From positions 120,682-184,681 of the forward strand of contig KL197719.1 in assembly GCA_000697665.1 (NCBI GenBank): a DNA stretch of 64,000 nucleotides. Direction: 5' to 3'. How positions within the stretch are numbered: position 1 is the stretch's first letter; each line of letters starts with the position of its first letter. This document shows positions 4,841-55,363 of the stretch, in pieces. The notes below the pieces were generated by a model. The model saw nothing but the letters and a program-made list of their open reading frames with translations. It ran no database searches and was not told where the DNA came from. The stretch is from Jaapia argillacea MUCL 33604 (lineage: Eukaryota > Basidiomycota > Agaricomycetes > Jaapiales > Jaapiaceae). Made by a program: the position numbers and the translations under genes.

Positions 4841-4970
4841 AGCAGCTGCGATTGAACGAGTCAGCCTCACCCCTCTCCCTCCCCCACGTCTGGGCACATC
4901 GATCGCTCCCATTTTCTGTCTCTGTGTTACTTATCCACAGTGGATGCAGCGAGGCTAAAACAGAACCCGT

Positions 4971-4980
4971 NNNNNNNNNN
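4971..4980. other. 10-N assembly gap
   Basis: Ten N interrupt the first tandem unit of the right block. A gap inside a repeat suggests uncertain copy number or a collapsed repeat. Confidence 0.95.
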
Positions 4981-5545
4981 GGACCCCTCACTCCGGTCGC
5001 AATCGAGGCCCGTTTGAGGTGGGATGAAGTGCGGAGGAGCACCCCCGGCGGCTATGGACAGTCTTGAAACTGGCAGAATTGGCTCCGTTCCGTGCTTTGT
5101 GCTTTGCTCTCTTTTGCCTTCTCTCTCACCTCGTTGTTGAACACTTCTTGGATGCCTTCATCCGTCTCTGTATCCACGGGTGCAGCAAGGTCAAAACAGA
5201 ACCCGTCGCCGAAACCATGGACCCCCCCACTCCGGTCGCAATCGAGGCCCGTTTGAGGTGGGATGAAGTGCGGAGGAGCACACCCGACGGCTATGAATGG
5301 GTCTTGAAAACGGACAGATATGGCACCGATTAGATGGTCAACGTTTAGACAAAGAAAGAGTATTCGACGGTGAGTCTGTGCCTTCGTGCGCGAGATGTGA
5401 TTTACTTACACCAATTCCGGCCGGGCAAAACCTCGGTTTTGTTTGGTCGGTGAGTTGATTTCTCTTTCAGGACCGCCGGATGCTAATTCTGTTTCTTTGT
5501 ATCTTCTATACCCATGGGTAACGAAGTGATGGATATTGGTATCGG

Positions 5546-32237: not shown

Positions 32238-32746
32238 GGTGGCAATGTATCGTTTTAACGGAGGATGAACGTGGCAGGGAGCAGGAAACCGACCAGGTGG
32301 ACTGGGGCTGGCTTGGAGCGAAATGTGGTGGTCACCGTTCGGAATCCAGAGGACTATGTATTGGAAGATGTTCCCACGCATACATTTTGTGATGGCCACC
32401 GTGACCGCCAACAATCTGGAGCTCCATTTTCATTTTCATCATTGTCCCGCCCGCCATCCACGCAACCTCTGCATTGTGCGAAGTCCGTTGTTTGCAGCGG
32501 ACACGTCGACGACAGCCGTCTGACGCGCCTGTGATTCTTCTGACCAACGCCACTTTTATAGGGCTATCATCTGACACCCGGAATGCCGGCAAGATTAGCC
32601 GTCGAGCCTTTGGGGGAGGGGAATCAGGAAGCCCGACATCTTCTTGTACAGGTACTTATCAACGTTGAGTGGGAATCTAGCTGTACTCTGTTTCTCTCTG
32701 CCACCTTTCGCAGCCTCTCGTCTAGCACCCTCCCGCCTGTGGAATC
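32238..32746. other. Divergent promoter region, SEY1 and AACS copy 1
   Basis: Similarity to the right arm starts at about 32,431, so part of this intergenic DNA was duplicated with the synthetase gene. No gene is seen. Confidence 0.5.
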
Positions 32747-35562
32747 ATGACAGAAAACCACTTTGCTCATTCTCGTCTGATATGGCGACCTGCCAATCCC
32801 AATGCAACTCGTGTCGATGCTTTGCGTCGAACAATCAACTGGAAACATGGTCTGCACCTGAGTGAGCTGAATGGTTTCAGAGCTCGGGCCTCGTCTCTCT
32901 GAACCTCTGACTGTAGAGGATTTCCACGATCTCCACAAGTACTCTGTTGAAGATTACACGTTTTGGCAAGACCTCTGGGAGTTTCTCGGAATCATATACT
33001 CTGTGCCACCGCAAAAGGTCACTTCACTTTAACTGCATTACGATGTCTCCCAATGCGACAATTTCCCCAGATTGTCGTGGAGGGGCGCATGAAAGAAGTC
33101 CCCACTTGGTTTCCCGGAGCACGGTTGAATTATGCTGAGAATCTCCTCTACCGAAATGATGATGCAATTGCAGTCACTTGCAGCAGAGAGACGGGAAGCG
33201 TGGCCCATTACACCTTCCGGCAATTGAGAGACATGGTGAAAGATGTTGCCACGGCGCTGAAAGTAAACGGACTGGAGGTGGGGGATAGAGTTGCAGGTGA
33301 CACACTGAAACTTTGCCAAAGAGATGGATGTTTTGTCTGATATGTTTCACTACTCAGCTATCGCGACCAACTCCATTCACGCTGTCGTGGTGTGCTTAGC
33401 TGCAATCAGTGCTGGCGGAGTTTATAGCTCGACCGCGACTGACATGGGCACTCAGGTCGGTACCCTCCCTTCTTTTTGCTAAAGGTCTCAGAATCCGTGT
33501 AATTACTCATATCCACGATCAGGGCATCCTAGACCGATACAGGCAAATCCAACCCAAGTTCGTCTTCGCCGAAACTGAGGTGTGCTATGCCGGCAAGACG
33601 ATAGACCTCCTACCCAAGGTGGCCGAAGTCGCACGAGACTTAGCCTCCAAAGGCCTCAAACATGTAATTTTATTTCCAAGTGCCAAGACGGAGAAGGAAG
33701 TTCACCCTGCCATCGAAGTACCTAGAGGGTGAGCGCGATGATCCATATATTCTCACATCACAAAGTTGAATGAGCATTCCTTCCTAGCATCATGCTGTCG
33801 AAATTCCTTGCTAGCGGAGATGGCCGAGAGCTCACGTTCGAACAACTTCCCTTCAATCATCCCGTGTACATCTTGTATTCATCTGGCACGAGCGGTGCCC
33901 CTAAGTGTATGATTCATGCAGCCGGGGTACGTTTGCAACTACAGCCCAATCTCCGAAGGGCCTCGAAGGCTCACTAACTGTGAACCGACCGATTATTAGG
34001 GAGTCTTGATGCAAACTAAGAAGGAATTGGCTCTCGCTTATGACCTAAATGTCGGCGACACATATTTCCAGTATACCACCGTAAGTTACCAATTTCATCG
34101 GGGTGTCCATATCGCTCTCTACGAGAATCCACTCAACTTGAATTTTGCAGACCGCGTGGATGATGTGGCCATTCATGCTGACCGGATTGGCTTGCGGTGC
34201 TCGTATCATCACATACGATGGCTCGCCCTTCTACCCGGATGTCAGGACGTTCCTGAAATTTGTTAGCGATCAGTGGTGAGTAAGGACCCTGCTCCGTCTG
34301 GCAAGACTTAAAACCTATCGACGCTTCCAGCGTGACTGTCTTTGGAACAAGCCCGCGGTTCTTGACAGAGGTGCAGGGCAATGGTATTAAACCCTGTGAG
34401 ATGGATTGTCATTCCGCATGTCCCATACATCTGAATTTTGTGATGTTTGTAGCGGAATTGGCCCCGTTTGAATCCCTACGGATCATCATGTCAACGGGTG
34501 CCGTACTCACAACCCCAATGTTTGAATGGACGCAGCAGGCCTTCAGACCTGATGTTCACCTCGTATCTGGATCTGGTGGAACCGATATCTGCGCCCCATG
34601 TACGATTTCTTCCATTGACACTGTATCCTGCTAATAGCTATTTTTGCAGTCGTCACTGGAGTTCCAACTCTACCTGTATATGCCGGAGGTAGGTCGCGTT
34701 TCCCAGAATATAACTCAGCTCGCGACGTTCAAAACTCTTCCAGAGATCCAGGGGAAGTCCCTCGGTATGAAAGTGGAAGTTTTCGATCCGACGGGTCAGA
34801 ACATCGAGCACACCGGTCAACCTGGCGAGCTCGTTTGTACCCGACCTCATCCATCCCTGCCTGTTGGCTTTTGGGGCGACGTGGATGGCACGAAGTTCCG
34901 CAGCTCTTACTATGAAATGTATCCCGGTAAGAAATACTTCATCCTGGCCTAGTAGCAGGTCTCGTTGGTTTACCCCCTCCTGCTGTTAGGAATCTGGAGA
35001 CAGGGTGACTTCATAGTGGTTAATCCCAAAACCAAGGGCCTTATGATCTTGGGGCGCAGTGACGGCGTCCTAAACCCGAGCGGAGTGCGATTCGGGTCAG
35101 GCGAGATATACTCGGTCATGGAGAAGTTCTCTTCAATCCTGGACGACTCTTTGTGCGTGGGTCAACGTCGACCTCACGACAACGACGAAAGGGTTCTACT
35201 CTTTCTCAAAATGCGACCAGGACAGAAGTTTACTGCTGACCTATGCCAACAAATCCGTGGTGCCATTCGTAGTGCTCTCAGTGCTCGACATGTTCCGTCG
35301 TACATCTTCGAGATATCTGACATCCCAGTCGGTGACCTTTGTTCTCCATACATGATACTCAACTAATGCCCCCGATTGTTTTCAGTACACTGTCAATGGC
35401 AAGAAGATCGAGATTGCCGTGAAACAAATTGTTTCCGGCGTAGATGTCAAGCCAAGCGGGACGGTTGCGAATCCGGAGAGCTTGGAACTTTACTACAAGT
35501 ATCGGGACGTTGAGGCGATGGCTGCTTCTGAGCAGGGCACGGCGTTGAAGGCAAAGTTATAA
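32747..35562 (+). CDS. Acetoacetyl-CoA synthetase, copy 1
   Basis: Fourteen exons with continuous phase give 679 residues: 32747-32861, 32917-33017, 33071-33296, 33358-33455, 33523-33728, 33788-33926, 34000-34080, 34151-34275, 34331-34395, 34453-34599, 34650-34688, 34744-34926, 34990-35327 and 35386-35562. This ANL-superfamily enzyme activates acetoacetate to acetoacetyl-CoA in the cytosol with ATP and CoA. The AMP-binding signature is [13 protein letters not shown]. The adenylate motif lies in [10 protein letters not shown], the hinge region in [19 protein letters not shown], and the catalytic lysine in YTVNGKKIE (about 627-628). The N-terminus ([12 protein letters not shown]) aligns with the AACS-specific extension, which argues against plain acetyl-CoA synthetase. 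Every exon length is the same in copy 2. Confidence 0.93.
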
Positions 35563-35932
35563 CGACAGAAGATTCCTTGCATCGATGCACGAGCACTCTG
35601 ACTTTGTTTCTACACCGGGCGAGGATACGGGCTAGGTCTGCTGAAAGACCAACGAATAAACATTGGATTATACTTGCCATGCACGCATAGGATACAGTGA
35701 AGAAAAGGACAGTGATTGAGTAACGACTAGGTCCCACAGCAAAGCCGAAAATAAGCTAAACAATGGCATGTCGAGGGAACCGAAAAAGGCAGAATAAAGT
35801 GAGGTATTGATGAATCGAATGAGATGATCGACTAGCTGGGGGTATACAAGGCGAAGATTGTTGAGAATAAATAGGCGAAGCCACGTCGTAACGCAAGAGT
35901 GGAAGTCCGCGTAGTGAGTGGAGTGGTAGGGA
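35563..35932. other. Convergent intergenic spacer in left arm
   Basis: 370 bp between the 3' ends of AACS copy 1 and the membrane-protein gene. Nothing is recognised. Confidence 0.4.
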
Positions 35933-38900
35933 CTATAGAAAGTTCTGTTCATAAATATCCAGGAGGGCCATATCCCGTCTCCAGAAACGCAACATTTGTT
36001 CTTGGACATGCTGAAAACATCGAAGGCGTCAGGTGAAACTCCAACTCGAGACAGACACCACTCACAAGATCATCATGTATCGGAGGGGCCCATCGAGGAT
36101 TGGGCTGGATGCTGCTAAGCAGCATTGCCAAACATTTATCGATGGAGAAGCCATGTTCGTCGGTGTCATCATCACCCTCGTCAATAGCGATGGAATCGGC
36201 ATCCACCATAGAGCCCTCGTCTCCACCATCGATAACCTCATTATTCTCTTGATCATGCTCCATCTCTCCTTCTGCACGGGACTTGCCCTTCTCCAATCGG
36301 CGATCGTAGACCTCATCCCAGTCAGGCTCGTCCTCCTCGTCCTCTGCAACCTCGCCGAACTCCTCAAGAACCCTATCATCCACTCCCTCCATCATCCCTA
36401 GCTTCACCCATAAGTTCCTCGTCACGTACCTCACCGCCCTCCGTCCGTCTTCCATCGACATCCGCTCCGACCGCTCCCGCTCGCTAGTCAGCCGCTTCGA
36501 CTCATGATGGCGACCCTCCAATTTCATCAGGGCCTGCTCCCGTCCCAAATTGGCGCCAACTCGTTCCCCGTGATGGACCCGCTTCAGCATGAATATCATT
36601 TTGTATAGGTTGATCTCGAAGGCTTTGTCTTCTCGTCGCCTGGCCACGTAGCGAAACCACAAATCAGTGTCAATGTCATGTACCGACTCGGGGCGTTCTT
36701 GGAAAGACGTTGGACTGCCAGTAGGAGGTGACGAGGGAATAAGTGGAGTCAGGCTTGCAAATGACAAGAATGTGGATGACGACGGGAGGAGGGAGCACGA
36801 GTGTGATGATGGAGGAGCGAGGAAGCACAAAGACGACACAGATGGAGATGTAGCAACGAAGAGAGATTTAAGATAATGGACCTGTTCAGGAGACTCGCCC
36901 GGTGAAGGCGCTGCCGGGCGAGCAGCGTTGTGATAACATGATAGAACAGTGGAGGCAGAAGCCTGAAGATATGCAGCACGAGAAGGAGTTTGAGGAGACC
37001 ATACCAGCGAGGCGGCACATGGGGTCCGACGGAACCTTGGCGAGTACGAAGGAGATGGCTCAAGACGTCTCCGGGAATACGGTGACCTGGAAGTAGAAGG
37101 ATTCAAAATGGGGGATCCACCGGAAGCGATAGATTGCCAGGAGCTTGACGGTGTCTTGAAACATGATTGAAGATACTGTGCTTTCTCTGGGGAATCATCC
37201 GGCGATGGTGCGCCAGGACGGACTGGAGGACTCCAGTGGGGAGGGCGATGAGGCTGTGGAGAATCCGCGGTAGATCCAAAGCGGTGAGATGAAGCACTAC
37301 AAGTGGGGTAGTTTTCCGCTTGAGAGGATCCGAGAACAGGTGATCTCGACAGCGAGGCAGCATAAGGTTGTGGAGGCGGTATTTGTTGAGATACAAGGAG
37401 GCAAGGAGGGGTCTGTTGACAACGATGATCATTGAATCCTGACTGACCTAAGGGCCAAGAGTCGTACGTACGACTTGAAACTGAGGAGGAACGCCTTCGA
37501 TTGGGACGGTGATTAGAAGCCCGAAGGTGCGAGCTACGTGGCGATGGGTTGAAGCGCCAAAGTTGATAACGAGACTGGGTCGAAGTAGTGGATCGGGGAC
37601 TCGACTTTGACTTGGGAGTGTGGGCGATCTTGGCAATCTTGGGAGGAGTAGGATACGCGGATCCCGTAGTTGAGATGTTCTCCGATGAGGGAAATGATGG
37701 TGAGCCGCAGGGAAGCACTTGTAGACTGGCAGCCGATCCGGGAGTGGGAGCCGACGGTCTGGGTGGAGGGGAGTCGAAACTTGAGGATGAGGCCACAGGC
37801 AGTCGAAGCACAGAAACAGAAGGAGACGAAGTAGACGATGCTGGAGGTGTGAAGGAGGGCTTGAGGAATGGTCGTTGTTGGCCAGGCAGTTCCATCGTCT
37901 GATGTTGTTCACGAGAGAGCGATGGCAAGACAAGTGGCGAATGAGGCCGAGAAGACTCAAAGGCGGCACTCGTAGGAGGAGTGTCGAAAGGGTCTACAAC
38001 GAATCTTGCATTGGCGAACGATGTTGGGGAGAGAGGGTCGAATCCAGTTTCCAGAGAAGAACGACATGATTGCTGTTCACTAATTTCACCATGGGAGGAG
38101 GCAGAGATGAAGTCGCGCTCCGAAGCTATGGGTGCGACAAATATACCAAGGCCCTTCATCAATGACTGCGGAGGCTCCCATCAGAAGTCATTCAGAGATA
38201 TGCAAATAAGGGATTCACATACCTTCCGCAGTGTTCTGTCCGGTCGAATCCTATCGGGATAGTGGGGCATTTCGTTCAAGATGCACTTCTCGTTCTCGAT
38301 TGACGATTTGTTAAACGTCGATATGTCTTCCTCAAAGTGCAAGCCAGGCCGACCGACGAGCGGACTTAAGATGTCGAAGGACGGAGATTCGTCGACTCTG
38401 TAGGAGGAAGTTGGGCAGGACATTGAAGGGCCGAAGGTGACCGCCGATTCGAAGCAACCTCGACATTTTGGGGGAGGTGTGGTATATTCAGTTTCCGGAG
38501 GATCAATTAAAGCTATCCCAGAGTCATCGGCGTCCTCTTGCTCGACACTCTTGGGGGCACAGACGATGATGCTTGGAACCGACGATGTCGACGGTAAATT
38601 GACCTGTAGGGCCGTCTTCAACAGTGGTATGAGAAAAACCCCGCATTGTATTGACGTGATTGACTCACTTTGCTTTTGTATGATGGTACAACAGGCGACA
38701 ACTGGTGCTCACGGTTGCTGGGTCTAGCCATTCCACCTTCAGCAGCCTGAGAGTCGACGGGGTCTTGAACGCAATCGAAGAGAGACATGTGGTCGCCAAC
38801 AAAACTGGCGGGGCTCAAAAGCATCAACCCTTGGTGTAGTTCGCCTTCTAGTCCCGCGATACATTGCTCGATGCGATCGTTCGACGCTTGGGTATATTGT

Positions 38901-40059
38901 TCGACCAGTTTAGAAGGCCCTTGAGAATCGGAGGTGTAGCTGCCCGCTGAGCAATTTGGATTAAGTTGTGATGTAACGAGGTTCTTGGTTTCAACTGAAG
39001 GCCCAGAAGGTCCGGCAAAGAGCGCAGCAGATTCTTCAAGAGTACCGGGGAAGGGAACGGTGGACTGGAGTAAGGCTTCGACGTCCATGTCGTCCAACGC
39101 CATTGCGAACGGAGAAGAATTGACCAGGCACCGAGAATCATCGGCCAATTTTGGTAGTGATGCGGTATTGAAGTAGATGGATGGCATAGGCATGTCGTTC
39201 GCTTTGGAGGATATAAACTCATCTTGAGCATTGCCAAGAAGACGGAAGGGACCGATGTTGTTGATAGTCAAGGTTACAGAATTGGGAGTAGAATTAGGTC
39301 CTAGAGGCAAGGGTTCCAAAACTGGAGCGCTCGTAGTAGAATTTGCCTTCATTTCGATGGTGGTATGTAGGTTCGTAGAGCCAGGGATATTGACATGGGT
39401 CCGTTTGGAAGTAGATATGTTCATATTTGAGCGAGCTCTGGTAATGGCAGACGGTGGGATAGAAATGTTGACGCTTCGCGGATTGGCCAGAGCTGCTTGT
39501 GTAGCAATGTTGGCGACAGAGACGGCCGATGGATTACTAAACCGAATGAGCAGAGCATCCAAAGGCACAGTTGGCAGGAACCGGAATGGCGGAAGACCGG
39601 CTTCGAGGTCTAAGTCTAAGAAAGCGCTGTCGTTGTGAACGAGGACCACCGATTCCGTGGAACAGGTTGAAAGGAACGAATTTGCGTTGTATGGACGATG
39701 TAATTCAGACAGAGGCACTCGCGGGATCCGGCAGACTTTGTTGCCACAATCAATTGGAATCAAAGAACACAACTGAACCAGGACATACCAGCAACGGTTG
39801 GAGTTCGAACGCTGGAGACAGGGCCACAACCGACGAGACTTTCAACTGTCTGCGTTGATTCGACATCGAAGGCGTTGACAGTGGCCTTGTTGACCTGTTT
39901 CTTGGCCTGGAAGGCACGGAAGGCCAGGATACCCGGAATGACAAGGGCTACGAGACAGACAAGAACGAGAATGCCCAAAAGCACTTGAACGAGAGGCAAG
40001 GGCGAGACGACTTTCGAGGCATCGATGGTGACGAGAGTTGCAATAGCAGAGGGAGGCAT
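35933..40059 (-). CDS. Large single-pass membrane protein with Ser/Pro-rich tail, intact copy
   Basis: Five exons with continuous phase give 1,302 residues: 39789-40059, 38669-39735, 38223-38615, 36066-38165 and 35933-36010. One hydrophobic segment at about residues 22-47 (within LVQVLLGILVLVCLVALVI) is followed by a basic AFQAKKQVNK stretch, so the long C-terminal part is probably cytosolic. The middle is Ser/Pro-rich and looks disordered, with many SPRSS and SYSPR-like steps. A charged helical block follows (near SVHDIDTDLWFRY), then an acidic region (EEDEPDWDEV). I recognise no family. The last intron (GTGAGT...TTTCAG) is preferred over reading through because it gives a natural end (QNFL). 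The promoter carries GACGCGTCGCGTCGGG and TATATATA, shared with the right arm. Confidence 0.78.
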
Positions 40060-40533
40060 GATTGACAGTGCTATATATATCGCAGAGATTAAAGCCGGTG
40101 GGCAAAGAAAGTGATTGCGCTGGTGGGCGGGTGATTGGCAAAAGGGTTGATTGTTCAGGACAAACGCGAACCAAAAACCAAAACCCCGACGCGACGCGTC
40201 ACTTCGGGGTCACACATCACGTGTGTCAATGAGTGACGGCTCTGAGTTGGTTCTTAGTCCCCTCCCCCCACCTTCAATTGGTCTCATTAAACTCTACGAA
40301 AGTCCCACTTTAAGGTCTGGCTCGAATTTACTACCTACTTATTTCCCCCTGGGTAGTGCAAGAGGTGTGCCACTTCAAGGATTTTCTGAGCTCCCGCCCA
40401 TTTGCGCTTGGCCCACTCAGGCTGTCACCCCCCGCACTCTCCAGGGCCTCTTGCAATAAGCCGACCCAACAAAGTTCTTCAATCTGTAGTCGTGGAAATT
40501 CTGCCTAGGGAGACGAGTTTTGTACCAAGTTGT
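40060..40533. other. Intergenic with left-arm inner boundary
   Basis: Holds the membrane-protein promoter, including a GC-rich GACGCGTCGC palindrome-like box near 40,190 and a TATATATA near 40,075. The duplication ends at about 40,440. Confidence 0.5.
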
Positions 40534-41597
40534 CTACGAACTTGGCGGATAGGGTGGCAACCCCCACTCTTCTGGTACAAACTGTTCCACTGACTTGAGA
40601 GTTTGATCAGGTGGATGCAAGCTATCGCTGTACTCCACATTCAGGAGACCCGAATCAGGCACCCAAACGACTATTTTGGGGGAAGTTCAGTTGCCAAGAA
40701 TCTACTGAGATTGTGCTGGCCGACGTACCATGCATTCCTGCCGCCTTACCAGCCTGAACTCCAGGGATGGCATCTTCAAATACGAGACCTTTGGCCCGTT
40801 CAGTTTTCTCCTCGTCCCCGACACTCCCTTCTGCGACTTCCCCCCTCCCGACCTTTCTATCTAACAGATCTCTCGCTGCAACTAAGAAAATATCAGGATG
40901 CGGCTTCCCTCTCACTCGACCTCCGCCCTCCTTGATCAGCATATCATCATCACCGCAAATCACCCTCTCTCCAAACATCCAAAATATTTCTTTCTCGAGG
41001 TGGGATGTTTTAAGAGCGAAGTTGGATCGTCTTGTCCCAGTTGCAATCGCGAATGGGATCGAGTTCGCATGAAGGTGGGAAATAAGCCGAGGGATACCAG
41101 GGAGAGGTTGAACAGTCGGCCAAAGTTCATTTTGAATTTTGTCACGAGTTGTAAGGTAAGTGTGGAGGGACAACGGAATATCGGGGAAGAAGGAAAGTAG
41201 GTGCATCGCTGCATCTTTCTCCGCTAGGAACAAGCGTTAGCGAGGACAACTATGAGGTCGGGAACGTCTGCGATCGACTTCGATGGCAATGGGACTTACG
41301 CTTTCCCATAAGACCTGCTTTGATATCCCAAGTCATCTCCTTGCCGTACTCTGCAAGGATCTGATCTGGGGTGACGGGTTGAGATTACAGTTCCAGAGGA
41401 TGGCGTTCAGATCCTACGCACTTGTCACGTCGGTGTATATCCGCTCCGAATCAATCATCAGCCCTTCAAATAAATTCAGATATCATCTCTTAGGGACGGG
41501 AGGGGGTTGAAGTACCATCCAGATCAAAGATCACATATTCTATCTTGCCTCTAGTGGGTGTTGGTCCGCCTGAAGTAGTGGCCATATCTCTCGTCAT
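40534..41597 (-). CDS. HAD-superfamily phosphatase (pseudouridine-5'-phosphatase/GS1-like)
   Basis: Five exons give 273 residues: 41516-41597, 41422-41463, 41300-41365, 40729-41223 and 40534-40670. All four HAD motifs are present: FDLDG (nucleophile Asp25, acid Asp27), AIATGTRR (motif II Thr), KPHPDIF (motif III Lys) and GLVFEDAIPGVQAGKAAGM (motif IV acid pair). The cap follows motif I, as in subclass I beta-phosphoglucomutase-type HADs such as human HDHD1/PUDP. The substrate could be pseudouridine-5'-phosphate or another small sugar phosphate; sequence alone cannot decide. It lies in the unique spacer between the inverted arms. The C-terminal tail after WVPDSG is longer than in bacterial relatives. 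Confidence 0.88.
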
Positions 41598-41790
41598 GCT
41601 AGATTACTCGTCTTAAAGCTGGAAGGTCGGAGGAGGACTCGAGGGGAATGCTTAGATATTTGTGTGCGACTGAGGGTGGGGGGCAGATCTGAGATCCCAT
41701 CAATCCCGCCTCATTAGGACTCCGCGCTTCTTCACTGACCTCGTTGCTCAAGCCGACCCACACCGTTCGTGCTCATCACCTTGTCCGACA

Positions 41791-42719
41791 ATGTCTCTCC
41801 TTCCAACTTCCAGGCCATTATCAAGTTCATATCCTGCCCGCCAGCACGCACCATACAGGCGCAGACGCATTATCTGGTCATTACTCCTCCTCTCAGCATT
41901 CTGCCTCACGTACTTCCACTTCTACCCATCCTCCTCGTTCCCCCTTTCCCTGACCTCGCTATCCCCTTCCACCAACTGGAGACCAGACAGAAATGGCGAC
42001 GCTCCACCTCCAGAACCAGAAGTGCAGAAGAAACCCATCAAACTTCAGGAAATCTATGGATTGTTGCATTTTCTCACATCAGCGAAGACAAGCGGCCTCA
42101 TGTTGGATGAGGTTGTTGTGAGAGGGTTACAGGATGATGTTGTCGACTGGGGTAAGCCAGTTGACTTTAGAGTGTATGCGAATGGTGAAGAGGATGATTG
42201 GGACGAGAATGCTCGAGAGTTATTGCACAATTACCCTGTCGTGGTATTCAGCAAGGTCCGTCCTTCGCCGTCTGGCCTCTCGATGTGTACGTGAATTGAA
42301 CCTCGTTGGTGCAGACATACTGCCCGTAAGTGGCCCCTCTTTGCGATTTTGTATCGTCCCCTTGACCGCCACTAGATATTCTAAACGAGGCAAAGCACTC
42401 CTGGAAACCTACTCTCTCTCACCATCCCCCAAGATAATCGAACTCGACCTTCGGACGGACTCACATGTCATCAAGCAAATCCTCACCCGAACAACAGGCC
42501 GCTCCACTGTGCCCAATATCCTGCTCACGGGCAGAGATCAAAAGGATATGTCCATAGGTTTGTACCGTTGACCACTCCTTTACCGTTTTCCTCATGCCGA
42601 CCATCGGCCCCTCTTTCCATTCCCTAGGAGGTTCTGACGACATCCATCAACTCCACGAACGTGGAGAACTGAGAGGTATCTTCGAGGAAGCCGGGTTGAA
42701 AGTGAATGGGTCACCTTGA
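41791..42719 (+). CDS. Membrane-anchored monothiol glutaredoxin (Grx6/7-like), CPYS on an 11-bp exon
   Basis: Exons are 41791-42255, 42315-42325, 42376-42557 and 42628-42719, in continuous phase for 249 residues. A signal-anchor lies near residues 28-45 (IIWSLLLLSAFCLTYF) after a basic RRRR, typical of the early-secretory Grx6/Grx7 group. The glutaredoxin domain begins about residue 145. The 11-bp second exon codes for T-Y-C and the first two bases of Pro, so the catalytic Cys of TYCPYSKRG is wholly on it. Later marks are STVPNILL and IGGSDDIHQLHERGEL (GSH-binding GG). Monothiol glutaredoxins of this group act in glutathione-dependent reduction or Fe-S binding in ER/Golgi. An additional RDQKDMS stretch before the GG motif could hide a further splice choice. 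Confidence 0.85.
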
Positions 42720-44375
42720 GCGCTATCTCCTAACAGCCCCATATGTATGACTCCATGGACCTACCCGCCTTCCTACTCCTTGTGCTGTATGATTAGTTAT
42801 CATGAACAACCGTTGAGCGCTCTAAGAGCGGTGAACTTGGAGTGTGGAGCGACGGGAACGAAGGCGTGGTGCATTGGATTCCAATGTAACCTTTCGGAAC
42901 GGACGTAGTAGAAGATCGGCGTGACCATGAACCACCTTGCACCTTGAGTGCTGGCAGGCATTCCGCCTAGTCCATTGAGAACATTCGAAATGAAATGTAG
43001 GGATGAACGATACCAAAATTCGTACCAATAACTCCACCGTTAGCTCGAACGTGCTCCCATGTTCCACACAACGTGTTGGGTCCGAGTGTGGATATTTATA
43101 GAACTCGGTGCTGGTACGTTGGCAGGCCTTGTTATCTGGCTGCTGTGGTTATGAAGCGAAATCTAGAACACCGATGAAATACAAACTTTCCCAGTGGGGG
43201 CATGGATGATCTATCTGTGCGTCCGGAATAACAAGCTTTGGCTTCCCTGTCTCCGACGAAGAGGCGGGGATGCAGACTGCTTGATTGACACTAACCGGCT
43301 CGAGGTTTGAGGAGCATGAGATAGGAGCACAGAGACGAGAAGAACAGTGTGGTTCAACCAGCAAAATGAAAGTCCTCCGATGTATTCTCAGAGAAGAGGT
43401 CGAAGGTGGCGTTCATCTGGAGACAACTGAGGTCGACTCGCCAAAACTCTAACTTGCAGAGGTTAGACCACGGAAGCGAACACGCTCGAAACGGTGAAGC
43501 AGCGACTCGTGTCGATCAAATGACGACGAAGGTAAAATCATAGCGAATGAGAGGAAAGCTAAACTTGTATCACTCCCCAACGAGCCAGATCCCAGAATAG
43601 ACGAAGCTAGAGCAAATCGTGATGGAGGGGTGTATCTGGTGGGTAGAGTGCGGCACCGGGGAATCGTGGACCCTTGAGCTGGGGTGCCTTGCTCAAAATA
43701 TCGCTCTCCAGAGCAGCGGTTGGGGATGGTCTGACCCTTTACGTCGCTTTGCGCAGGGTGGTGCATGGGCCGCAGATGATAACCCCGGTGATTGGTTGCG
43801 ATATCATGTCCGGCGATAGATTGTGTTGCACGCGAGGTGCGTAATATTCGAGGGTCCCAACGAGATAAGTCTCGCCAGGAACGAGGGGCGGGCGAAACAC
43901 CCTCCGATTTAGTGTTCCATAAATTTGAGTTCCGTCACAAAATATCACGATGGGATCGAAGGCCGGGAAGCCGAACAAGCTATCGGAGAAGAAGGCAGGA
44001 GTTCATACCTTGGCCTCCTGTTCGATAAGTAAGATAGTCGACTCTATGTGTTGGAATGGAACACAAGGGAAAGGTCGCAGACTAGACACACATTCATGAA
44101 GGTGCGGAGGAAACAGGGGACTGGAGGTGGCGGTGGGTGACATGGAGTGACAGATCGGAAGCTGGGGTTCGATGCCACATGTGGTAATACAAAGCAAGGG
44201 AATTCGTGTACCACGGTCACTCCTGGACAACTGTCGCCCTTTGTTCTATTTTACCATTCATCCCCAGTTCTAGCCAACACACTCGTTGAATTTTTTATCT
44301 TTTATCTTTCTCGGCACCATTGCAGGGAACACGTTCAGATCTGCGCATTCGTTTCATATATAAGATCATCAAACC
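42720..44375. other. 1.65 kb without a recognised gene
   Basis: Several minus-strand frames occur: 43,149-43,364, 43,449-43,766, 43,739-43,978 and 44,003-44,230. The one at 43,739-43,978 (79 codons) reads like a folded protein, but I could not join it to its neighbours with consistent splice phase. A short gene or a decayed one is possible. Confidence 0.35.
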
Positions 44376-45595
44376 ATGGCTCACCGCCGCACCGACTCTG
44401 CGCGCCGCCTCCACCTCATGGGCGAAAAGTCTTCATACCACTATGATCACCATAATCTTCCTACTCCCCCGCTATCCCCCCTCCCGTCTCCCCCTGCTAC
44501 ACTGCTAGCCAGTGCCATGGACGAGGACGAGGAAGCCCCGTCAGCCTACCACGCATCCGCACCCACGAAGGTCAACCATCTCCGGGGCCTCTTCCAATCA
44601 ATATCCCCGTTGGCACGCAAGTCCCCCAAGTCATTCCATCGTATGACTTACGTCGCTCTCTCCCTCCTCATCGTCACGACCATCTACGTCCTCTTCCTCA
44701 CCCAGCAACACTCGATTAGCTCGAGCCTGTCACTATCCCCCTTCTCCTTCGGACCAACTCCAAGTACAAATGCGAACGTCGAAAATGTTCCTGATCATGA
44801 CGACGGTAGTGCATCTCTTTCACCACAGCACCTTGACTCGAATCCTCATTCGAAACACAAAGGTTCATCATTTCACTACCCTGGACATTTCCGGCCAAAA
44901 TACCAAGCTCATCGACCGAGCCGACCTCAAATTGCATTGGATCCGGCACAAGAACTTGCCGCCGTGACGTCTTTCATCGTCAGCTTGGCAGAGAACCTTA
45001 TTCCACTCTCGGTGGATCCATCAAAACCCATCGATCCCGAAGTCGTGTTGGATTTCGATACAAGGAGTGACAGGGCGCAGGAAGAGTTGGATGCTATTAT
45101 TAAAGATGTTTGGTCGAGATTCCCGGTGGTCTTGTTCTCCAAGGTTCGTCCTCGTTACTCCTTCGTCCACGTTGCACTTTGACTGATCATAATTTATGTA
45201 GTTCCACTCCGCGATATCGAGGGAGGCAAAGGCGATTCTAAGTGAACTCAGCTTGAAGCCGGCACCGATGATCATCGACGTCGACAAGCGCGGTATGTCT
45301 TGCCACTGTATATGACATCTTCATCGCAATGCTCATTTTCGCTATTTCAGAGGACGAAGAGATACTCGTCCCGCTTCTCTATCGCTTAACATCGCCGTAC
45401 CATATTCCAACAATATCGCCGATAACGCAAGAGGAGGAAGAGAGGTCGCTTCCCATCCTGCTTATTGCAGGGCAGCCCATTACAACTATCTCTCAGTTGC
45501 GCGACTTGCATTCGAGAGGGGAGTTGGGGAAGCTTCTTGGAGACGCGGGTGCTGTTGTGGGTGGTGCGAAAAAGAAGGGCAAGGGAAGACGGTAA
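44376..45595 (+). CDS. Glutaredoxin-like protein lacking the active-site cysteine, membrane anchored
   Basis: Exons are 44376-45143, 45202-45292 and 45351-45595, for 367 residues. A hydrophobic anchor lies at about residues 92-112 (MTYVALSLLIVTTIYVLFL). The C-terminal domain follows the neighbouring glutaredoxin closely: FPVVLFSK then REAKAILSELSLKPAPMIID, and LPILLIAGQPITTISQLRDLHSRGEL. Where the paralogue has TYCPYS this protein has FHSAIS, so the catalytic Cys is Ser. The exon boundary before this segment is conserved, but the paralogue's 11-bp exon is fused with the next one here. A KKKGKGRR tail ends the protein. Redox catalysis is unlikely; a binding or regulatory role is inference. The first intron uses a GTTCGT donor. 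The start is the first Met in frame; a later Met (MDEDEE) is an alternative. Confidence 0.8.
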
Positions 45596-46469
45596 CAACC
45601 GATATCCCCGTCATTCCTCTTTGGCCGCCGATGCTTGGTGCCGTTGAATGGTCTCAGCGTCGTTGTATGCTTCATCTACGCTGGTGGCATCTTGGTACGG
45701 ACTTCCATTTTCTGTGTTTCTCGGACAAGTTATTCCCAACGTCTTCGTGGGGTGATCTGGTTATTACCCAGGTGAATTAGCGGTCACCGTACATACACTC
45801 ATACAGTTCCTTGTCTTGTATGACCAGTCGTTACTCTCACACCTCCCCACGCAACCTATATGTCGTATCTAGTACCGTTTACGATTACATACCCACGAGC
45901 TCACTATTACCTCCACGTCGTCACATCGGACCTTATCCTCTACCCCCCTACAGATTCGTTGCTTGTTTGAAGTGTTTTTAGTACAGTACTTTGACGATAG
46001 AGTAGTAATAGTAGAAGTCGATCGCTCAATCAAATAGAATCCCTGTTTCGAAACCGTCACCTCACTGTATTATGGATCTATTGTCTACGTATACATCTCC
46101 CGTTGGGAGTGAATGGTTGTACGAACAGAGCCCACAAGAGCAAGACAGCTCCCCCATCCGGGTCGGGAGCTGGGAGACCAAGAAAGCTCCGTGGATCCAA
46201 GCAACATGTCTCTCAGACTGCCTGCCCGACGAAAGTCGAAAAAGTCGAGGGATCAGCAAGAAGCATCTTGGGGCCAAGCATTCTTACAGAACCGTCCATT
46301 CGGTGCCATAGAAGATAAGATACGTTAGAAAACCCTTACGGAGTGCTTCGAGATGAAACAGCACTGAGGTACGTCAGAAGGGGCTGAGAGGTATCCGTGT
46401 CAGCCCCTACGGCACGATGGCATAGCCTTCATAGCCCGGTCATCGCCGGCACATGGGGTAGCACGGGAA
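45596..46469. other. Intergenic, no gene seen
   Basis: Stacked open frames of 60-79 codons at 46,062-46,328 overlap on both strands without motifs. Nothing is supported. Confidence 0.4.
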
Positions 46470-47241
46470 TTGAACAGGATTGAGCTGGGAGGTTCAACGG
46501 GGCAGGACCACCAGTATAGATGCGTGGTCTCCTTATCTAAAACGAGGGGGGTCGGGAATGGGAGGGCAGGGTTCCAATGTCAGTTTAATGATGCACTTCT
46601 CTGCACGATGTGCTTGCCAAGGGGAGTTGCAAAGATACGTGATACTGAACCTCAACGAAAATACAGGTTAGGATCGCAGTCTCGTAAGAGGAATCCCCGG
46701 GGACAAACCTGTGTGGTAGTCAAGGAAAATGATTGCGAATCAACTGGGGAAATTCTGATCGCTGGACTAGTGGGAGGTTCTGATAAAATTACGGCTCACC
46801 GAAGTCCAGATAATCGTCGTACTATCAGACGGGTAGTTCTGACCAACATGTATCAATATTACCGATCTTCAAAATCACACCTGCAGCCTTCCGCACTTCC
46901 CCGTTCTCTGTGCGATGTGCTTGCCGAGGGAAGCTTCACGTGATACCGAACCTCAACGAAAATACAAGTTGGGATCGCAGACTCGTAAGAGGAAGCGACA
47001 GGGACAAGCCTGCGTGGTGGTCAAGGAAAATAATTGCGAAAGAACTGGGGAAATTCTGATCGCTGAATTGGTGGGAGGTTCTGATAAAATTACGGCTCAC
47101 CGAAGTCTAGATAATCGTCGTAGTGGTAGATTTTGTCCACTACTTGTAGAAACGTGCTTTCCTGAGGAGGTGACATTAGGCCAAGCGCAAATGGGCGTAC
47201 TCGCCATAGGAATTGATCCACGGAAGAAAGACAATCCTTGA
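46470..47241 (+). repeat. Tandem direct repeat (about 215 bp, period about 307 bp) with conserved open frame
   Basis: The segments at about 46,608-46,830 and 46,915-47,127 are near-identical. Shared runs include CCTCAACGAAAATACA, ACTGGGGAAATTCTGATCGC and GAGGTTCTGATAAAATTACG. Both copies keep the same reading frame: DTEPQRKY...LGSQ...RKR...CVVVKEN...GEILIA...LVGGSDKITAHRS. Open frames span them (46,470-46,943, 157 codons; 46,915-47,241, 108 codons). No domain is recognised. The repeat abuts the inner edge of the right duplication arm (about 47,160). Confidence 0.7.
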
Positions 47242-47544
47242 GGCAGCAGACCTCTTGCCCTACCCAACGGGAAATAAGTAGGTCGTACTTTCGAGTAGGA
47301 CCTGCCGCTTAAAGTTTGACCTTTGTTTTCGTAGGGTTTGATGACGCCAATTGAAGTTGAGGGGAACCGACACTCATCAACACACGTGACATGTGACCGC
47401 GTAGTGACGCGACGCGTCGCGTCGGGGCGCGAATCCTATTTTCGTTCGCGTTTGTCCTGGGCAATCAACCCTTTTGGCAATCACCCGCCCAACTTTTCTT
47501 TGCACCCCGGCTTTAATCTCTGCGATATATAGATTACTATAATC

Positions 47545-50500
47545 ATGGCCCCCTCAAGTCTGAATCTCGTCACTATCGATGCCTCGAAAGTCGTCTCGCC
47601 CTTCCCTCGCGTTCAAGTACTTTGCGGCATTCTCGTCCTTTCTGTCTCGTAGCCCTTGTCATTCCGGGTATCGTGGCCTTCCGTGCCTTCCAGGCCAAGA
47701 AATAGGCCAAGAAGGTCACTGTTAACGCCTTCGATGTCGAATCAGCGCAGGCCGTTGAAAGCGTCGTCGTTTATGGACCTGTCTCCGAATGCGTCCGAAC
47801 TCCAAACGCGGTCGGTATTTGCTAGTTCACTTTCTTGCTTTGATCCCAATTGATGTGGCAACCAAGTCTGCCGGATCCCGCGAGCGCCTCTGTCCGAATT
47901 ACATCGGCCGTACAACGCTAATTCCTCCCTTTCAACCTCCTCGACCGAATCGGTCGTCCTCGTTCACGACGACAGCGCTTTCTTAGACTTGAATTTTGAA
48001 GCTGTCCTTCCTCCATTCCGGTTCCTGCCAACTATGCCTTTGGCAGCTCTGCTCAATCAGTTTGGCAATCCGTCAGCCGTCTCTGTCACCAACATGGCTA
48101 CACAACGCGTCCACACAGAGGCGGGAAGCGTCGACATCTCCATCACAGCGTCCGCTATCGCCAGAGCTCGCTCAAATCTCAACATCTCAATTTCCAAAAG
48201 GACCCATGTCAATACCCCTAGCCCCATGAACCTACATCCTAGCGTCGAAACAAAGGCAAATTCCGCAACAAGCGCTCTAGGTTTGGAACCCTTGTCTCTA
48301 GGGCCTAATGATACCCCCAATTCTGCAACCCTGACTATCAGCAACATCGCTCCCTGCCGTCTGTCTGGCAATGCTGAAGATGAGTTTATATCCTCCAAAG
48401 CGAACGACATGTCTATGCCATCCGTCTACTTCAATACCGCATCACTACCAAAATCTAGTCACGATTCTCCATCCCTAGTCAATCCTTCTCTGTCCGTACA
48501 GGCGTTGGACGCCATGGACGTCGAAGCCTTACTCCAGTCCACCGTTCCCTTCCCCTGCACTCGTGAAGAATCTACGGCTGTCGTCGCCGGACCCTCCGAG
48601 CCTCCAGCTGAAACCAAGAACATCTTTGCTGCACAACTTTCTTCAAAATACGCAACTGGCAACTTCGGGCCTTCCCCATCGGACCCTCGCATCCCTGAAT
48701 ATCGAGGATCACCCAAACTGGTCGAAAAATATACCCAAGTATTAGACGACCTCTTCGAGCGATGTATCGCGGGACTAGAAGGCGAACTACACCAAGGGCT
48801 GATGCTTTTGAGCCCTGCCAGTTTTGTTGACGATCACATGTCTATCTTTGATTCTATTCGAGCCCCTGTCGACTCTGCTGAATTTGGAATGGGCGGACGC
48901 AACAATCGTTAGGACCAGCAACCATCCATTTTACCATCATGCACGAGCAAAGTGAGTCAGTCGCGTCAATACAAGGAAGGGGTTTTCTGACGCTGTTGTT
49001 GAAGACCGTCCCACGGGTCAATTTACCATCGACATCATCTATCCCAAGCATCGTAGTCCGTGCTCCCGGGAATATCGAGCAAGAAGACATCCAAGATTCC
49101 GGGGTGGCTTTAAGTGACCCTTCGCAATCTGAATGTACCACACCTCCCTTAAACTGCCGAGGGCGATTCGAATCAGCGATCACCTTTGGTCCATCAATGT
49201 CCTGCCCAGCTTCCTCCTACAGAGTCTACGAATCTCCATCCTTCGACATCTTAAGCCCACCCGTGGGTCGGCCTAGCATGAGTTTTGAGGAAGACATGTC
49301 GACGTTTAGTAGGTCTTCGATCGAGAACGGTGGGAGCGTCTTGGGTGGAGTGTCCCACTATCCCAACAGAATTCGACCGGACAGAACGCTGCGAAGGGTT
49401 TGTGGATCCCTTGGGTGTATATGTCCGAATGACTTCTGACGGGAGCCTCTGCAGTCCTTGATGAAGGGCCTTGGCATTTTCGTCGCCCCTATAGCTTCAC
49501 AGCACGAGTTCATCTCCACCTCTTCTCTGGGTGAAACCGGTGGACAGCAATCTTCTCATTCTATGCTGGAGACTGGATTCGACCCTCTCTCCCCAAAATC
49601 GTTTGCCAATGCGGGATTCGCTGTAGAACTTTTTGACACCCCTCCTATGAATGCTGCCTTTGGGTCTTCTCGGACTCATTCGCCACTTCTCTTGCTATCG
49701 CCGTCTCTTGGACAACGTAGGGCGATGGAACTTCCCGACCAACAACAACAATTCCTCAAGTCCTTCAACTCTTCAACTCCAGCATCATCTACTTCTGTTT
49801 CTGTTCTTCGACTGCCCATGGCCTCGTCCTCAAGTTTCGACTCACCTTCACCCAGGCCGTCGTCTCCCACTCCTGGATCGGCTGTCAGCCTACGAGCGTT
49901 TCCCTGTGGCTCACCATTATTTCACTCACCGGAGAACACCCCAACCACCGGATCCACGGGTCCTACTCCTCCCAAGGCTGTCCACACTCCCAAGTCAAAA
50001 TCGACTCCCCGATTTACCACTTTGACCCAGTCTCCTTGGCAACGTTGCCGTCAAGAAACGACTCCTCCTTGCCTCCTTGTATCCCACCGAACACCACCTT
50101 CGCAGCCATGTGCTCCCTCGCTGTCAAGATCGCCTGTTCTCAGTTATTCTCAAGCGGGGAACTACCGCACGTGTAGTCCTTCATCACATCGCATCGGATC
50201 TGCCTCGGGTCCTCCACGGCGTCACGGTCCTCCCGGCTGGAGTCCCCCACCCCGTCCTGTCGCACCATCGCCGGGTGATTCTCCAGAGCAAGCACGGTAT
50301 CCTCAATCATGTTTCAAGACACCGTCCAGCTCCTGGCAATCTATCGCCTCTGGTGGATCCCCCATTTTGAACCCTTCTACTTCCAGGTCACCGTATTCAC
50401 GGAGACGTCTTGGGCCGTCTCCTTCGTACTCGCCAAGGTTCCGTCGGACTCCATGTGCCGCCTCGTTGACGTGGTCTCCTCAAACTCCTTCTAGTGCTGC

Positions 50501-51538
50501 ATATCTTCAGGCTTCTACATCCACCCCCTACGGTAGTCATCGTAATCCCACGAGTACTGCTCTATTATATTATCGCAACGCTGTTCGCTCGGCAGCGCCT
50601 TCACCGGACGAGTCTCCTGAACAGGCCCATTATCTTGAATCTATCTTCGTTGCTACATCTCCATCTGTTTCGTCTGTGTGCTTCCTCGCTCCTCCATCAT
50701 TACACTCGTGCTCTCTCCTGCCATCGTCATCTACATTCCTCTCCTTTACAAGCTTGACACCACCCATTCCCTCGTCACCCCCTACTGGCAGTCCAAAGTC
50801 TTTCCAAGAACGCCCTGAGTCGGTACACGATATTGACTCTGATTTGTGGTTTCGCTACTTGGCCAGGCGACGAGAAGATAAGGCCTTCGAGATCAATCTA
50901 TACAAAATGCTATTCGTGTTGAAGCGAGCCCATCACGGCGAACGAGTGGGCGCCAACTTGGGACGGGAGCAAGCCGTGATGCAAGTGGAGGGGCGCCATG
51001 GCGAGTCGAAGCGGCTGGCAAGCGAGCGGGAGCGTTCGGAGCGGATGTCGATGGAAGACTGAAGGAGGGCGGTGAGATATGTGACGAGGAACTTATGGGT
51101 CCTTGAGGAGTTTGGCGAGGTGGCTGGAGACGAAGACGAGGAACCTGACTGGGACGAGGTACATCAATGCCGACTAGAAAAGGGGAAGTTCCGCGCTGAT
51201 GATGAAATGGAACACGATGAAGGGGCTGAGGGTATCGACGGTGAAGACGAAGGCTCTATCGTGGATGACGATTCCATCGCCGTTGACTCGGGCGACGATG
51301 ATACCGACGAGCATGGCTTCTCGGTCGATCAATGTTTGGCAATGCTGCTCAGTAGCATACAGCCCATTCCTCGATGGGCACCTCCGACACATGATAACCA
51401 TGTAAGTGCTGACTTTGTCCTCTTAGTTGAAGTTTCACCTGACGCCTTCGACGTCTTCAGTATATCCAAGAATAAATGTTGCGTTTCTGGAGGCGGGATA
51501 CGGCCCTTCTGGAGATTTATGAACAGAGATTTCTATAG
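47545..51538 (+). pseudogene. Decayed copy of the large membrane-protein gene
   Basis: The five-exon layout of the 35,933-40,059 gene is recognisable throughout. However, the first exon has a one-base loss in the transmembrane segment and a CAG-to-TAG change (KKQ to KK stop). The end of the second exon is out of frame. GGA has become TGA after SERMSMED (about 51,059-51,061), with a short deletion just beyond it, and the last exon has a TAA. Long pieces remain open: 47,989-48,912 (307 codons) and 49,458-51,062 (534 codons). At least five disabling changes make a normal product unlikely. A short protein from an internal start cannot be excluded. The promoter motifs (GACGCGTCGCGTCGGG, TATATA) are still present. 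Confidence 0.85.
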
Positions 51539-51818
51539 TCCCTTAATTCAGTGCCCCGTCCCTTTTTGCTGTTCTCAATTGCCTCGCCATGCTACTGTTC
51601 ACCTTATTTTCTAATTGGGTCTCTTTGGATTAAACCGTACCTGTATCTCACTGTCCCTTCCATCACTAGCCATTCCTATTTGTAATCTTCGCCGTGTCCT
51701 ATATAATCCAGTACTTATTATTTTGCCATTCGGGAGATCTATCCAGTGTCTGGTTGTCGGGTGGAAAACAAAGCCAGAGCCGTAGAGGTAAGCAATCCAC
51801 TGAAGAAATCGTTTGTCG

Positions 51819-54631
51819 TTATAACTTTGCCTTCAACGCCGTGCCCAGCTCAGAAGCAGCCATCGCCTCAACGTTCCGATACTTGTAGTAAAGTTGCAAG
51901 CTCTCCGGATTCGCAACTGTCCCACTTGGTTTGACATCTACACCAGAAACAATTTGTTTCACGGCGATTTCGATCTTCTTCCCATTGACAGTGTACTGAG
52001 AACGATCAGGGGCATTAGTTGAATATCATACATGAAGAACGAAGGTCACCGACTGGGATGTCAGATATCTCAAAGATGTACGAGGGAACGTGTCGAGCAC
52101 TGAGAGCACTGCGAATGGCACCGCGAATTTCTTGGCATAGATCGGATGTAAACTTCTGGCCCGGTCGCATTTTGAGAAATAGTAGAACCCTCTCGTCCTT
52201 GTCGTGAGGTCGACGCTGACCCACGCACAAAGAGTCGTCCAGGATTGAAGAGAATTTCTCCATGACCGAGTATATCTCGCCTGACCCGAATCGGACTCCG
52301 CTCGGGTTTAGGACGCCGTCACTGCGCCCCAAAATCATGAAGCCCTTCGTCTTGGGATTAACCACTACGAAGTCACCCTGTCTCCAAATTCCTAGCAGCG
52401 GGAGAGAATAAGCCACCAAGACCTGCCACTACGTCAGGTGAAGTATTTCTCACCAGGATACATTTCATAGTAAGAGCTGCGGAACTTCGCCCCATCCACG
52501 TCGCCCCAAAAGCCAACAGGCAGGGATGGATGAGGTCGCGTACAAACAAGCTCGCCGGGTTGACCAGTGTGCTCGATGTTCTGACCGGTTGGATCGAAAA
52601 CCTCCATTTTCATACCGAGCGATTTGCCCTGGATCTCTGCAGGCATTTTAACGTCGTAAGCTGAGTTATATTCAGGGATTTATGACGTACCTCCAGCATA
52701 TACAGGCAGAGTTGCAACTCCCGTGACGACTGCAGAATAGCTATCAGCAGGAGGTAGCGTAAGTGCAAGCCTTCATACAATCAGCGCAGATATCAGTTCC
52801 ACCAGATCCAGATACGAGGTAAACATCAGGTCTGAAGGCATGCTGCGTCCATTCAAACATCGGAGTTGTGAGTATGGCGCCCGTTGACATGACGATCCGT
52901 AGGGATTCAAACGGGGCCAATTCCGCTACAAATGTTACAAAATTCAGATATATGGGACAGACGGAATAAAAATCCATCTCACAAGGTTTAATACCATTGC
53001 CCTGCACTTCGGTCAAGAACCGCGGGCTTGTTCCAAACACAGTCACGCTGGAAGCATCGATAGGTCCCAAGCCTTGCCAGATGGAGCAGGGTTCGTACTC
53101 ACCACTGATCGCTAACGAATTTTAGGAACGTCTTGACGTCGGGGTAGAAGGGCGAGCCGTCGTAGGTGATGATACGAACGCCACAAGACAATCCGCTCAG
53201 CATGAACGGCCACATCATCCACCCGGTCTGCGAAATTCAACGTCAGTGGACTCTCCTAGAGCTCGACGGACGTCCCCATAATGCTGATAACTTACGGTTG
53301 TGTGCTGGAAATATGTATCGCCGACGTTTAGGTCATAAACGAGAGCCAATTCTTTCTTGTGTTGCATCAAGACACCCTAAGAATCAGATTGTCAACAGTA
53401 AATGAGCCGTCGTGGGATTTCCGAGATAGGGCTGGCGTTGCAAACGTACCCCAGCTGCATGGATCATGCACTTCGGGGCACCACTCGTGCCAGAGGAATA
53501 CAATATGTACACGGGATGATTGAAGGGAAGTTGTTCGAACGTGAGCTCTCGGCCATCTCCGCTAGCAAGGAATTTCGACAACATAATGCTATGCAGAAAC
53601 GCTCATTCAATTCTGCAATGTGGCAATATATAGATCATCACACTCACCCCCTCGGTACATCGATCGCGAGGTCAACTTCCTTCTCCATCTTGGTACTTGG
53701 AAGTAAAATTACATGTTTGAGGCCTTTGGAGGCTAAGTCTCGTGCGACTTCGGCCACCTTGGGTAGGAGGTCGATCGTCTTGCCGGCATAGCATACCTCA
53801 GTTTCGGCGAAGACGAACTTGGGTTGGATTTGCCTGTATCGGTCTAGGATGCCCTGATCGTGGATATGAGTAGTTACACGGATTCTGGGACCTTTTGGGA
53901 AAAGAACGGTGGGTACCGACCTGAGTGCCCATGTCAGTCGCTGTCGAGCTATAAACTCCACCGGCACTGATTGCGGCTAAGCAAACGACGACAGCGTGAA
54001 TGGAGTTGGTCGCGATAGCTGAGTAGTGAAACATATTAGCACAGCGTCCATCTGTTTGGCAAAGTGTTAGGTGGTTTCACCTGCAACTCTGTCCCCCACT
54101 TCTAGCCCGTTCACTTTCAGCGCCGCGGCAACATCTTTCACCATGTCCCTCAACTGCCGGAAGGTGTAATGGGCAATGATCCCCGTCTCTCTGCTGCAAG
54201 TGACTGCAACTGCATCATCATTTCGGTAGAGGAGATTCTCAGCATAATTCAACCGTGCTCCTGGAAACCAAGTGGGGACTTCTTTCATGCGCCCCTCCAC
54301 GACTATCTGGGGAAATTGTCGCGTTGGGAGACATCACAATGCAGTGAAAGTGAAGTGACCTTTTGCGGCGGTACAGAGTATATGATTCCGAGATACTCCC
54401 AGAGGTCTTTCCAAAACGTGTAATCTTCAACAGAGTATTTGTGGAGATCGTGGAAATCCTCTGCGGTCAGAGGTTCAGAGAGACAAGGCCCCGAGCTGTC
54501 GAACTATTCAGCTCACTCAGGTGAAGACCATGTTTCCAGTTGATCGTTCGACGTAAAGCATCGACGCGAGTTGCATTGGGATTGGCAGGTCGCCAGATCA
54601 GACGAGAATGAGCAAAGTGATTTTCGGTCAT
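51819..54631 (-). CDS. Acetoacetyl-CoA synthetase, copy 2
   Basis: All 14 exons match copy 1 in length: 115, 101, 226, 98, 206, 139, 81, 125, 65, 147, 39, 183, 338 and 177 bp. They give 679 residues with no break. The exons run from 54517-54631 to 51819-51995. Catalytic stretches are unchanged: [36 protein letters not shown] and YTVNGKK. Differences are mostly conservative; in the last exon 3 of 58 residues differ (SLE/SLQ, YRD/YRN, SEQ/SEL). Splice sites also drifted without loss, for example CCGCAG for CTGTAG at the first acceptor. Retention of a full frame beside a decayed neighbour gene suggests selection on this copy. Its upstream neighbour, transcribed the other way, is the decarboxylase-like gene at 55,364. 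Confidence 0.92.
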
Positions 54632-55363
54632 GAATCCACAGGCAGGGGTGTTGTGGACGATATACAACGAAAACCGGCAGGAAGAAACGGAGTGCAGCTG
54701 GAATCCCACCAATGTCGATAAGTACAAGAAGACGTCGGGCTTTTTGATTCCTATTCTGCCAACTTCCCCCCAATGGTGGTTTGAAGGCTACTAATCTTGC
54801 CGGCATTTCTTATGTCACTGGATAGTAGCCCTGAAGAAGCGAGGTTGGCCAGAGGAATCACAGGCGCATCAGGCGGTTGTCGTCAACGCGTCCGGTGAAA
54901 GCGAGGGCCTCAATGCAGAGGTCGCTTCCATCGCGATGGCGGGCCAGAGCAAGGTAGAGCAGTCAACTCCCCATCGTCCTCATCGTGGTAACTGGTCCCC
55001 AACTCTATGTTTGTTGACTTGATGTTCCCCTGCAATTTACCAGTGTGCGGTGGAAGCGGTTTCCATTGAAAAGATCTTGAGAGTTGGCATATCCTTGACC
55101 TCTATTACTAGACCACGCTGTGTATCTATCTATCTATCTATGTAGTCCAACTCCTGGATCAACGTGGCGAGATGAGGTATTCTCTTTAACAGACATCAAT
55201 CTCCGTGCACACTTGCCCCGAGAAGGTATCGTATCACGGACCCTCTAATTCCGTTGCATCATGCACCGGGTTCCATGGGCGCTGTTTGGTCGTGGTGGGC
55301 AGTGCAAACTGTTCCTTATTGTCCTTCTTGACCATCCCCAAACTCCTACTTCGTCGTTCAACA
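54632..55363. other. Divergent promoter region with right-arm outer boundary
   Basis: Similarity to the left arm ends at about 54,960. A short (TATC)n microsatellite lies at 55,123-55,141. The region is shared by AACS copy 2 and the decarboxylase-like gene. No gene is seen. Confidence 0.5.

Follow-up and report, generated by a model that had tools for sequence, protein, structure and literature searches.

An inverted duplication of a two-gene block in the fungus Jaapia argillacea, with a pair of acetoacetyl-CoA synthetase genes and one decayed neighbour

Results

Structure of the inverted duplication

The window analysed here is a stretch of 64,000 nucleotides from Jaapia argillacea MUCL 33604 (contig C11, positions 120682-184681), and the genome searched comprises 43.7 Mb in 95 contigs. 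The window contains two arms, arm A at 32443-40413 (plus strand) and arm B at 47179-54946 (minus strand), the latter being the reverse complement of the former. Three mutually collinear inverted blocks were identified by self-BLAST, all with E=0: 32443-35672 against 54946-51702 (86.7% identity), 35928-37413 against 51543-50060 (82.0%) and 37555-40387 against 50050-47229 (79.1%). Global alignment places the outer edges at about 32443 in arm A and 54946 in arm B, and the inner edges at about 40413 and 47179, respectively. The edges are sharp, with the 100-column identity dropping to about 31-53% beyond them, and the arms are therefore kilobase-length reverse-complement copies with defined limits, as expected of an inverted segmental duplication. 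A first-pass annotation, made from the sequence alone, had described an 8-kb gene-bearing inverted duplication; self-BLAST and global alignment agree that it is real, and the arm coordinates given there (32,431-40,440 and 47,160-54,960) are accurate to about 30 bp. The arms contain no assembly gap, and the single N run within the window (4971-4980) is distant from both. A genome DNA search with positions 33,000-34,000 matched only the arms, and searches with both flanks across the genome returned the flanks themselves, except that the right flank also matched contig C25 over 34 bp.

The spacer between the arms (40414-47178) measures about 6.8 kb and had been annotated as unique, in agreement with the genome DNA search in which positions 40,500-46,500 returned only themselves. 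It comprises a HAD hydrolase gene on the minus strand, identified by a Pfam HAD match, and two glutaredoxin-like genes on the plus strand: the first at 41674-42568, with a weak match below the Pfam cut-off, and the second at 44364-45179, judged by eye alone. These neighbours are perhaps older tandem paralogues. No recombinase was identified in the 7 longer spacer frames to which the Pfam scan was confined. A direct repeat of two copies of about 225 bp, 87% identical, was found by self-BLAST at 46597-47122 (plus strand); about 57 bp separate its end from the inner limit of arm B. A genome search with 46550-47160 returned only itself. This repeat is possibly a scar from the insertion of arm B. 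A transposon origin was rejected, since the repeat has no other copy in the genome and no transposase was present in the frames scanned around the arms. The gene to the left of arm A encodes a Sey1-like GTPase, with Pfam matches to RHD3_GTPase and Sey1_3HB.

An APH-like gene forms another inverted duplication in the window, comprising positions 1-902 (together with a stretch left of the window, L014 8791-9998) and 21717-24410. Its pieces are 85-95% identical and lie about 21 kb apart, the near copy ending some 8 kb to the left of that arm A; the APH matches are below the Pfam cut-off. The presence of this second inverted gene duplication weakens the first-pass description of the 8-kb arms as unusual. 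Direct repeats were also identified at 1338-2021 and 4932-5519 (79-88% identity), the second of them containing the N run.

The acetoacetyl-CoA synthetase pair

Each arm carries a gene for acetoacetyl-CoA synthetase (AACS, gene 1), an enzyme of ketone-body metabolism, and a second gene convergent to it (gene 2). AACS-A (32747-35562, plus strand) and AACS-B (51819-54631, minus strand) are intact genes of 14 exons and 679 amino acids, modelled by eye from three-frame translations with the usual splice rules, and neither reading frame has an internal stop. Against TIGR01217 (acetoacetate--CoA ligase) AACS-A scored 695.4 bits and AACS-B 698.0 bits, the curated equivalog cut-off being 520.9. In exceeding it both copies resemble the acetoacetate-CoA ligase PDB 4wd1, which was the best match of AACS-B among solved structures, aligned over residues 31-660 of 679. 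The ATP-binding loop and the C-terminal lysine region (NGKKIE) are common to both copies and, in AACS-B, were aligned to 4wd1; we take these two regions to be catalytic in acetoacetate-CoA ligase.

The two proteins are identical at 643 of 679 residues, and the pair has a dS of 0.28 and a dN of 0.025 (pS 0.234, pN 0.025), giving a dN/dS of 0.09. Over the 14 exons taken singly pN runs from 0 to 0.063 and pS from 0.125 to 0.404. Had one duplicate drifted freely, a pair dN/dS of about 0.5 or more would be expected, so AACS-A and AACS-B both appear, on these substitution patterns, to be under purifying selection.

Residue conservation, the sole use made of the bacterial homologues, was scored on the best 80 of at least 575 prokaryote relatives, fetched with a query that included the 4wd1 stretch. 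Of these, 74 were used; in the other 6 the chosen ORF did not match, a different gene probably having supplied the longest plus-frame ORF, and they were dropped. A prokaryote genome scan with the two-copy AACS alignment gave no match, and neither did viral contigs. Positions at which AACS-A departs from the bacterial homologues include residue 324, which is Ala where AACS-B and 74/74 of them have Gly (one of the fetching patterns spanned this position, permitting Gly or Ala there), and residue 301, which is Thr where 73/74 have His. AACS-B in turn has Ala at residue 440, which is Pro in 70/74. A third and far more distant AACS-like gene was found on contig C1 at about 1,647.9-1,650.6 kb (within C1:1646500-1652500). 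In this paralogue residue 324 is Gly in two same-frame alignment pieces and another residue in two out-of-frame ones. None of its five alignment pieces has His at position 301, which makes that position less telling. Since residue 324 is changed in AACS-A, full activity of this copy is uncertain. A shift in the function of AACS-A under strong overall constraint, with the pair retained because the enzymes differ in substrate or regulation and gene 2-B decaying as a passenger, would be one reading of these residues; we hold it to be rather unlikely.

Gene 2 and its pseudogene

Gene 2-A (35933-40059, minus strand) is intact, with 5 exons and 1,298 amino acids, in a model also drawn by eye with the usual splice rules. 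The protein is Ser/Pro-rich and has, by eye, one N-terminal hydrophobic segment. It has no Pfam match at E<=1, and a genome protein search with its 743-aa exon-4 frame matched the two arms alone. Gene 2-B (47545-51538, plus strand) is a pseudogene, as judged by its lesions relative to gene 2-A: the frame is shifted by 1 bp at about codon 34, and stops interrupt it early at codons 55, 433, 1147 and 1278 (counted in the A register), the last of them 21 codons ahead of the end. The first-pass annotation had placed the same two convergent genes in both arms, which is right as to the layout but not as to the state of gene 2 in arm B. Introns and upstream sequence are included in the arms, as had been noted: intron positions are common to both (13 in AACS and 4 in gene 2), the block edges lie upstream of both genes, and every gene copy has retained its own upstream region.

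The coding indels in gene 2 are multiples of three in 11 of 12 cases (binomial p 5e-5 against one third), and the dN/dS between A and B is 0.415. Neutral decay was simulated starting from the gene 2-A coding sequence, with 300 runs apiece for branches that were 0.14 and 0.168 long (in substitutions per site). The mean numbers of stops were 13.9 and 16.2, and 0/300 runs in either case gave four or fewer. A branch of 0.10 gave a mean of 10.0 stops, with 5% of runs at four or fewer, and branches of 0.03 and 0.05 gave means of 3.4 and 5.3. The four stops observed, against about 14-16 under neutrality throughout, point to a late loss: gene 2-B was probably constrained as coding sequence for most of its history. 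One of its long open frames may still yield a shortened product.

Silent divergence of the arms

Silent divergence is about 18-24% across most parts of the arms. Differences at 4-fold sites amount to 64/321 in AACS (0.199) and 116/518 in gene 2 (0.224); at aligned intron sites they amount to 137/770 and 45/229, and in the upstream regions to 67/285 and 53/298, respectively. The DNA between both stop codons differs at 97/257 sites, in an alignment that is less sure there. Within AACS, introns 1-4 differ at 27/235 sites and introns 5-13 at 110/535, and exon 5 has a pS of 0.125. The similar overall values for AACS and gene 2 fit one duplication of the whole block, and their unevenness makes some conversion or constraint likely.

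Low-divergence tracts were sought by permutation with two sets of sites, a lenient one (all third positions, introns and intergenic DNA) and a strict one (strictly silent sites only). In the lenient set, a tract at 33489-33705 of arm A has differences at 3/95 silent sites (p 0.0015 over the whole arm and 0.0005 on the AACS side), and another at 36795-36948, on the gene 2 side, has 1/52 (p 0.0185). The strict set gave a longer tract at 32886-33702 of arm A, where 39/306 sites differ (whole-arm p 0.006), and the tract at 33489-33705 has 2/60 (whole-arm p 0.025; 0.11 for AACS by itself). The signal is weaker in this set and varies with the mismatch penalty: for the three penalties applied, p was 0.28, 0.006 and 0.025 when the arm was taken as a whole, 0.81, 0.07 and 0.11 when AACS was taken by itself, and 0.91, 0.15 and 0.31 for gene 2. 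The whole-arm signal may be due in part to the more diverged intergenic DNA. Gene conversion between the arms is thus possible, with 33489-33705 as the candidate tract.

Discussion

The locus very probably goes back to an old segmental duplication in which a two-gene block of 8 kb was copied, inverted, about 6.8 kb away, the copies having since been largely independent. A single event would have copied the whole block with its two convergent genes into inverted orientation, by template switching or break-induced repair, or by a tandem duplication and later inversion. Purifying selection would then have retained both AACS copies, for dosage or for a divided function, and gene 2 would have remained mostly constrained until the copy in arm B died. 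In this scheme arm B would be the daughter, for which the evidence is conflicting. The FastTree branch is 0.041 for AACS-B against 0.013 for AACS-A (in a tree without a support test), and arm B also holds the pseudogene and adjoins the direct repeat. Polarised against 4wd1, the 36 AACS differences comprise 7 apparently derived in A, 4 apparently derived in B and 25 uninformative; against the bacterial set, 12 of the 36 were scored, with 4 apparently derived in A, 6 in B and 2 unclear.

The arms could instead be an active inverted repeat that stays similar by flipping its spacer or by conversion. They do lie inverted on one chromosome, they contain the low-divergence tracts described above, and inverted paralogues with repeated conversion are reported from Aspergillus (PMC12844118). 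Invertible elements, however, are recognised by near-identical repeats or by a recombinase in the spacer, and here the arms are 79-87% identical, with a longest exact match of 78 bp. The strict-site tests within each gene and the confinement of the gene 2 lesions to one arm also speak against an active repeat, which we consider improbable. In budding yeast, mismatches suppress recombination, and 3% divergence cuts single-strand annealing to less than 50% efficiency (PMC8072546). With arms diverged by 13-21%, this sensitivity makes flipping at present unlikely, and the extrusion or spacer flipping that had been proposed for the locus was rejected, as an activity of the present, on the arm divergence and the short exact matches.

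A narrower form of this idea, in which recent conversion and not selection on both has kept the AACS copies alike and intact, draws on introns 1-4 and exon 5, whose divergence is below that of the rest. It is marginally less probable still, as the 4-fold divergence of AACS is near that of gene 2, and pN is low in all 14 exons while pS runs from 0.125 to 0.404. Least credible of all is an assembly artefact, in which the mirror would come from joining two haplotypes, or the two nuclei of a dikaryon. Fungi can be dikaryotic, and the N run indicates that the window comes from a scaffold, but there is no gap near the arms, their flanks are unlike each other, and divergence of this extent with a pseudogene on one side only bears out the earlier remark that visibly diverged arms are not a trivial mirror.

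An old segmental duplication of this kind has counterparts in other fungi. Inverted paralogous groups are described on chromosome 1 of Aspergillus flavus and chromosome 8 of A. oryzae (PMC12844118). There, as here, opposite-strand paralogues flank unrelated genes and some copies are split by stops, and conversion was proposed. The Aspergillus paralogues lie 47-174 kb apart in four nested groups compared between two species, whereas the Jaapia argillacea locus is a single compact block of 8 kb, with 6.8 kb between its copies, for which conversion is possible but not demonstrated. Yeast foldback inverted duplications (PMC10622511) likewise involve DNA copied in inverted orientation; they originate at breaks close to short inverted repeats and lead to a dicentric chromosome, unlike the internal, old block with diverged edges identified here.

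The locus belongs to a known kind, of which it is a well-preserved case, and the outcome of its gene duplications is ordinary. It raises no new question on mechanism. Its interest lies in two adjacent genes that were duplicated at about the same time and met with opposite fates, the AACS pair being kept and one copy of gene 2 dying late. It also shows that a fungal chromosome can retain long inverted arms without erasing them.
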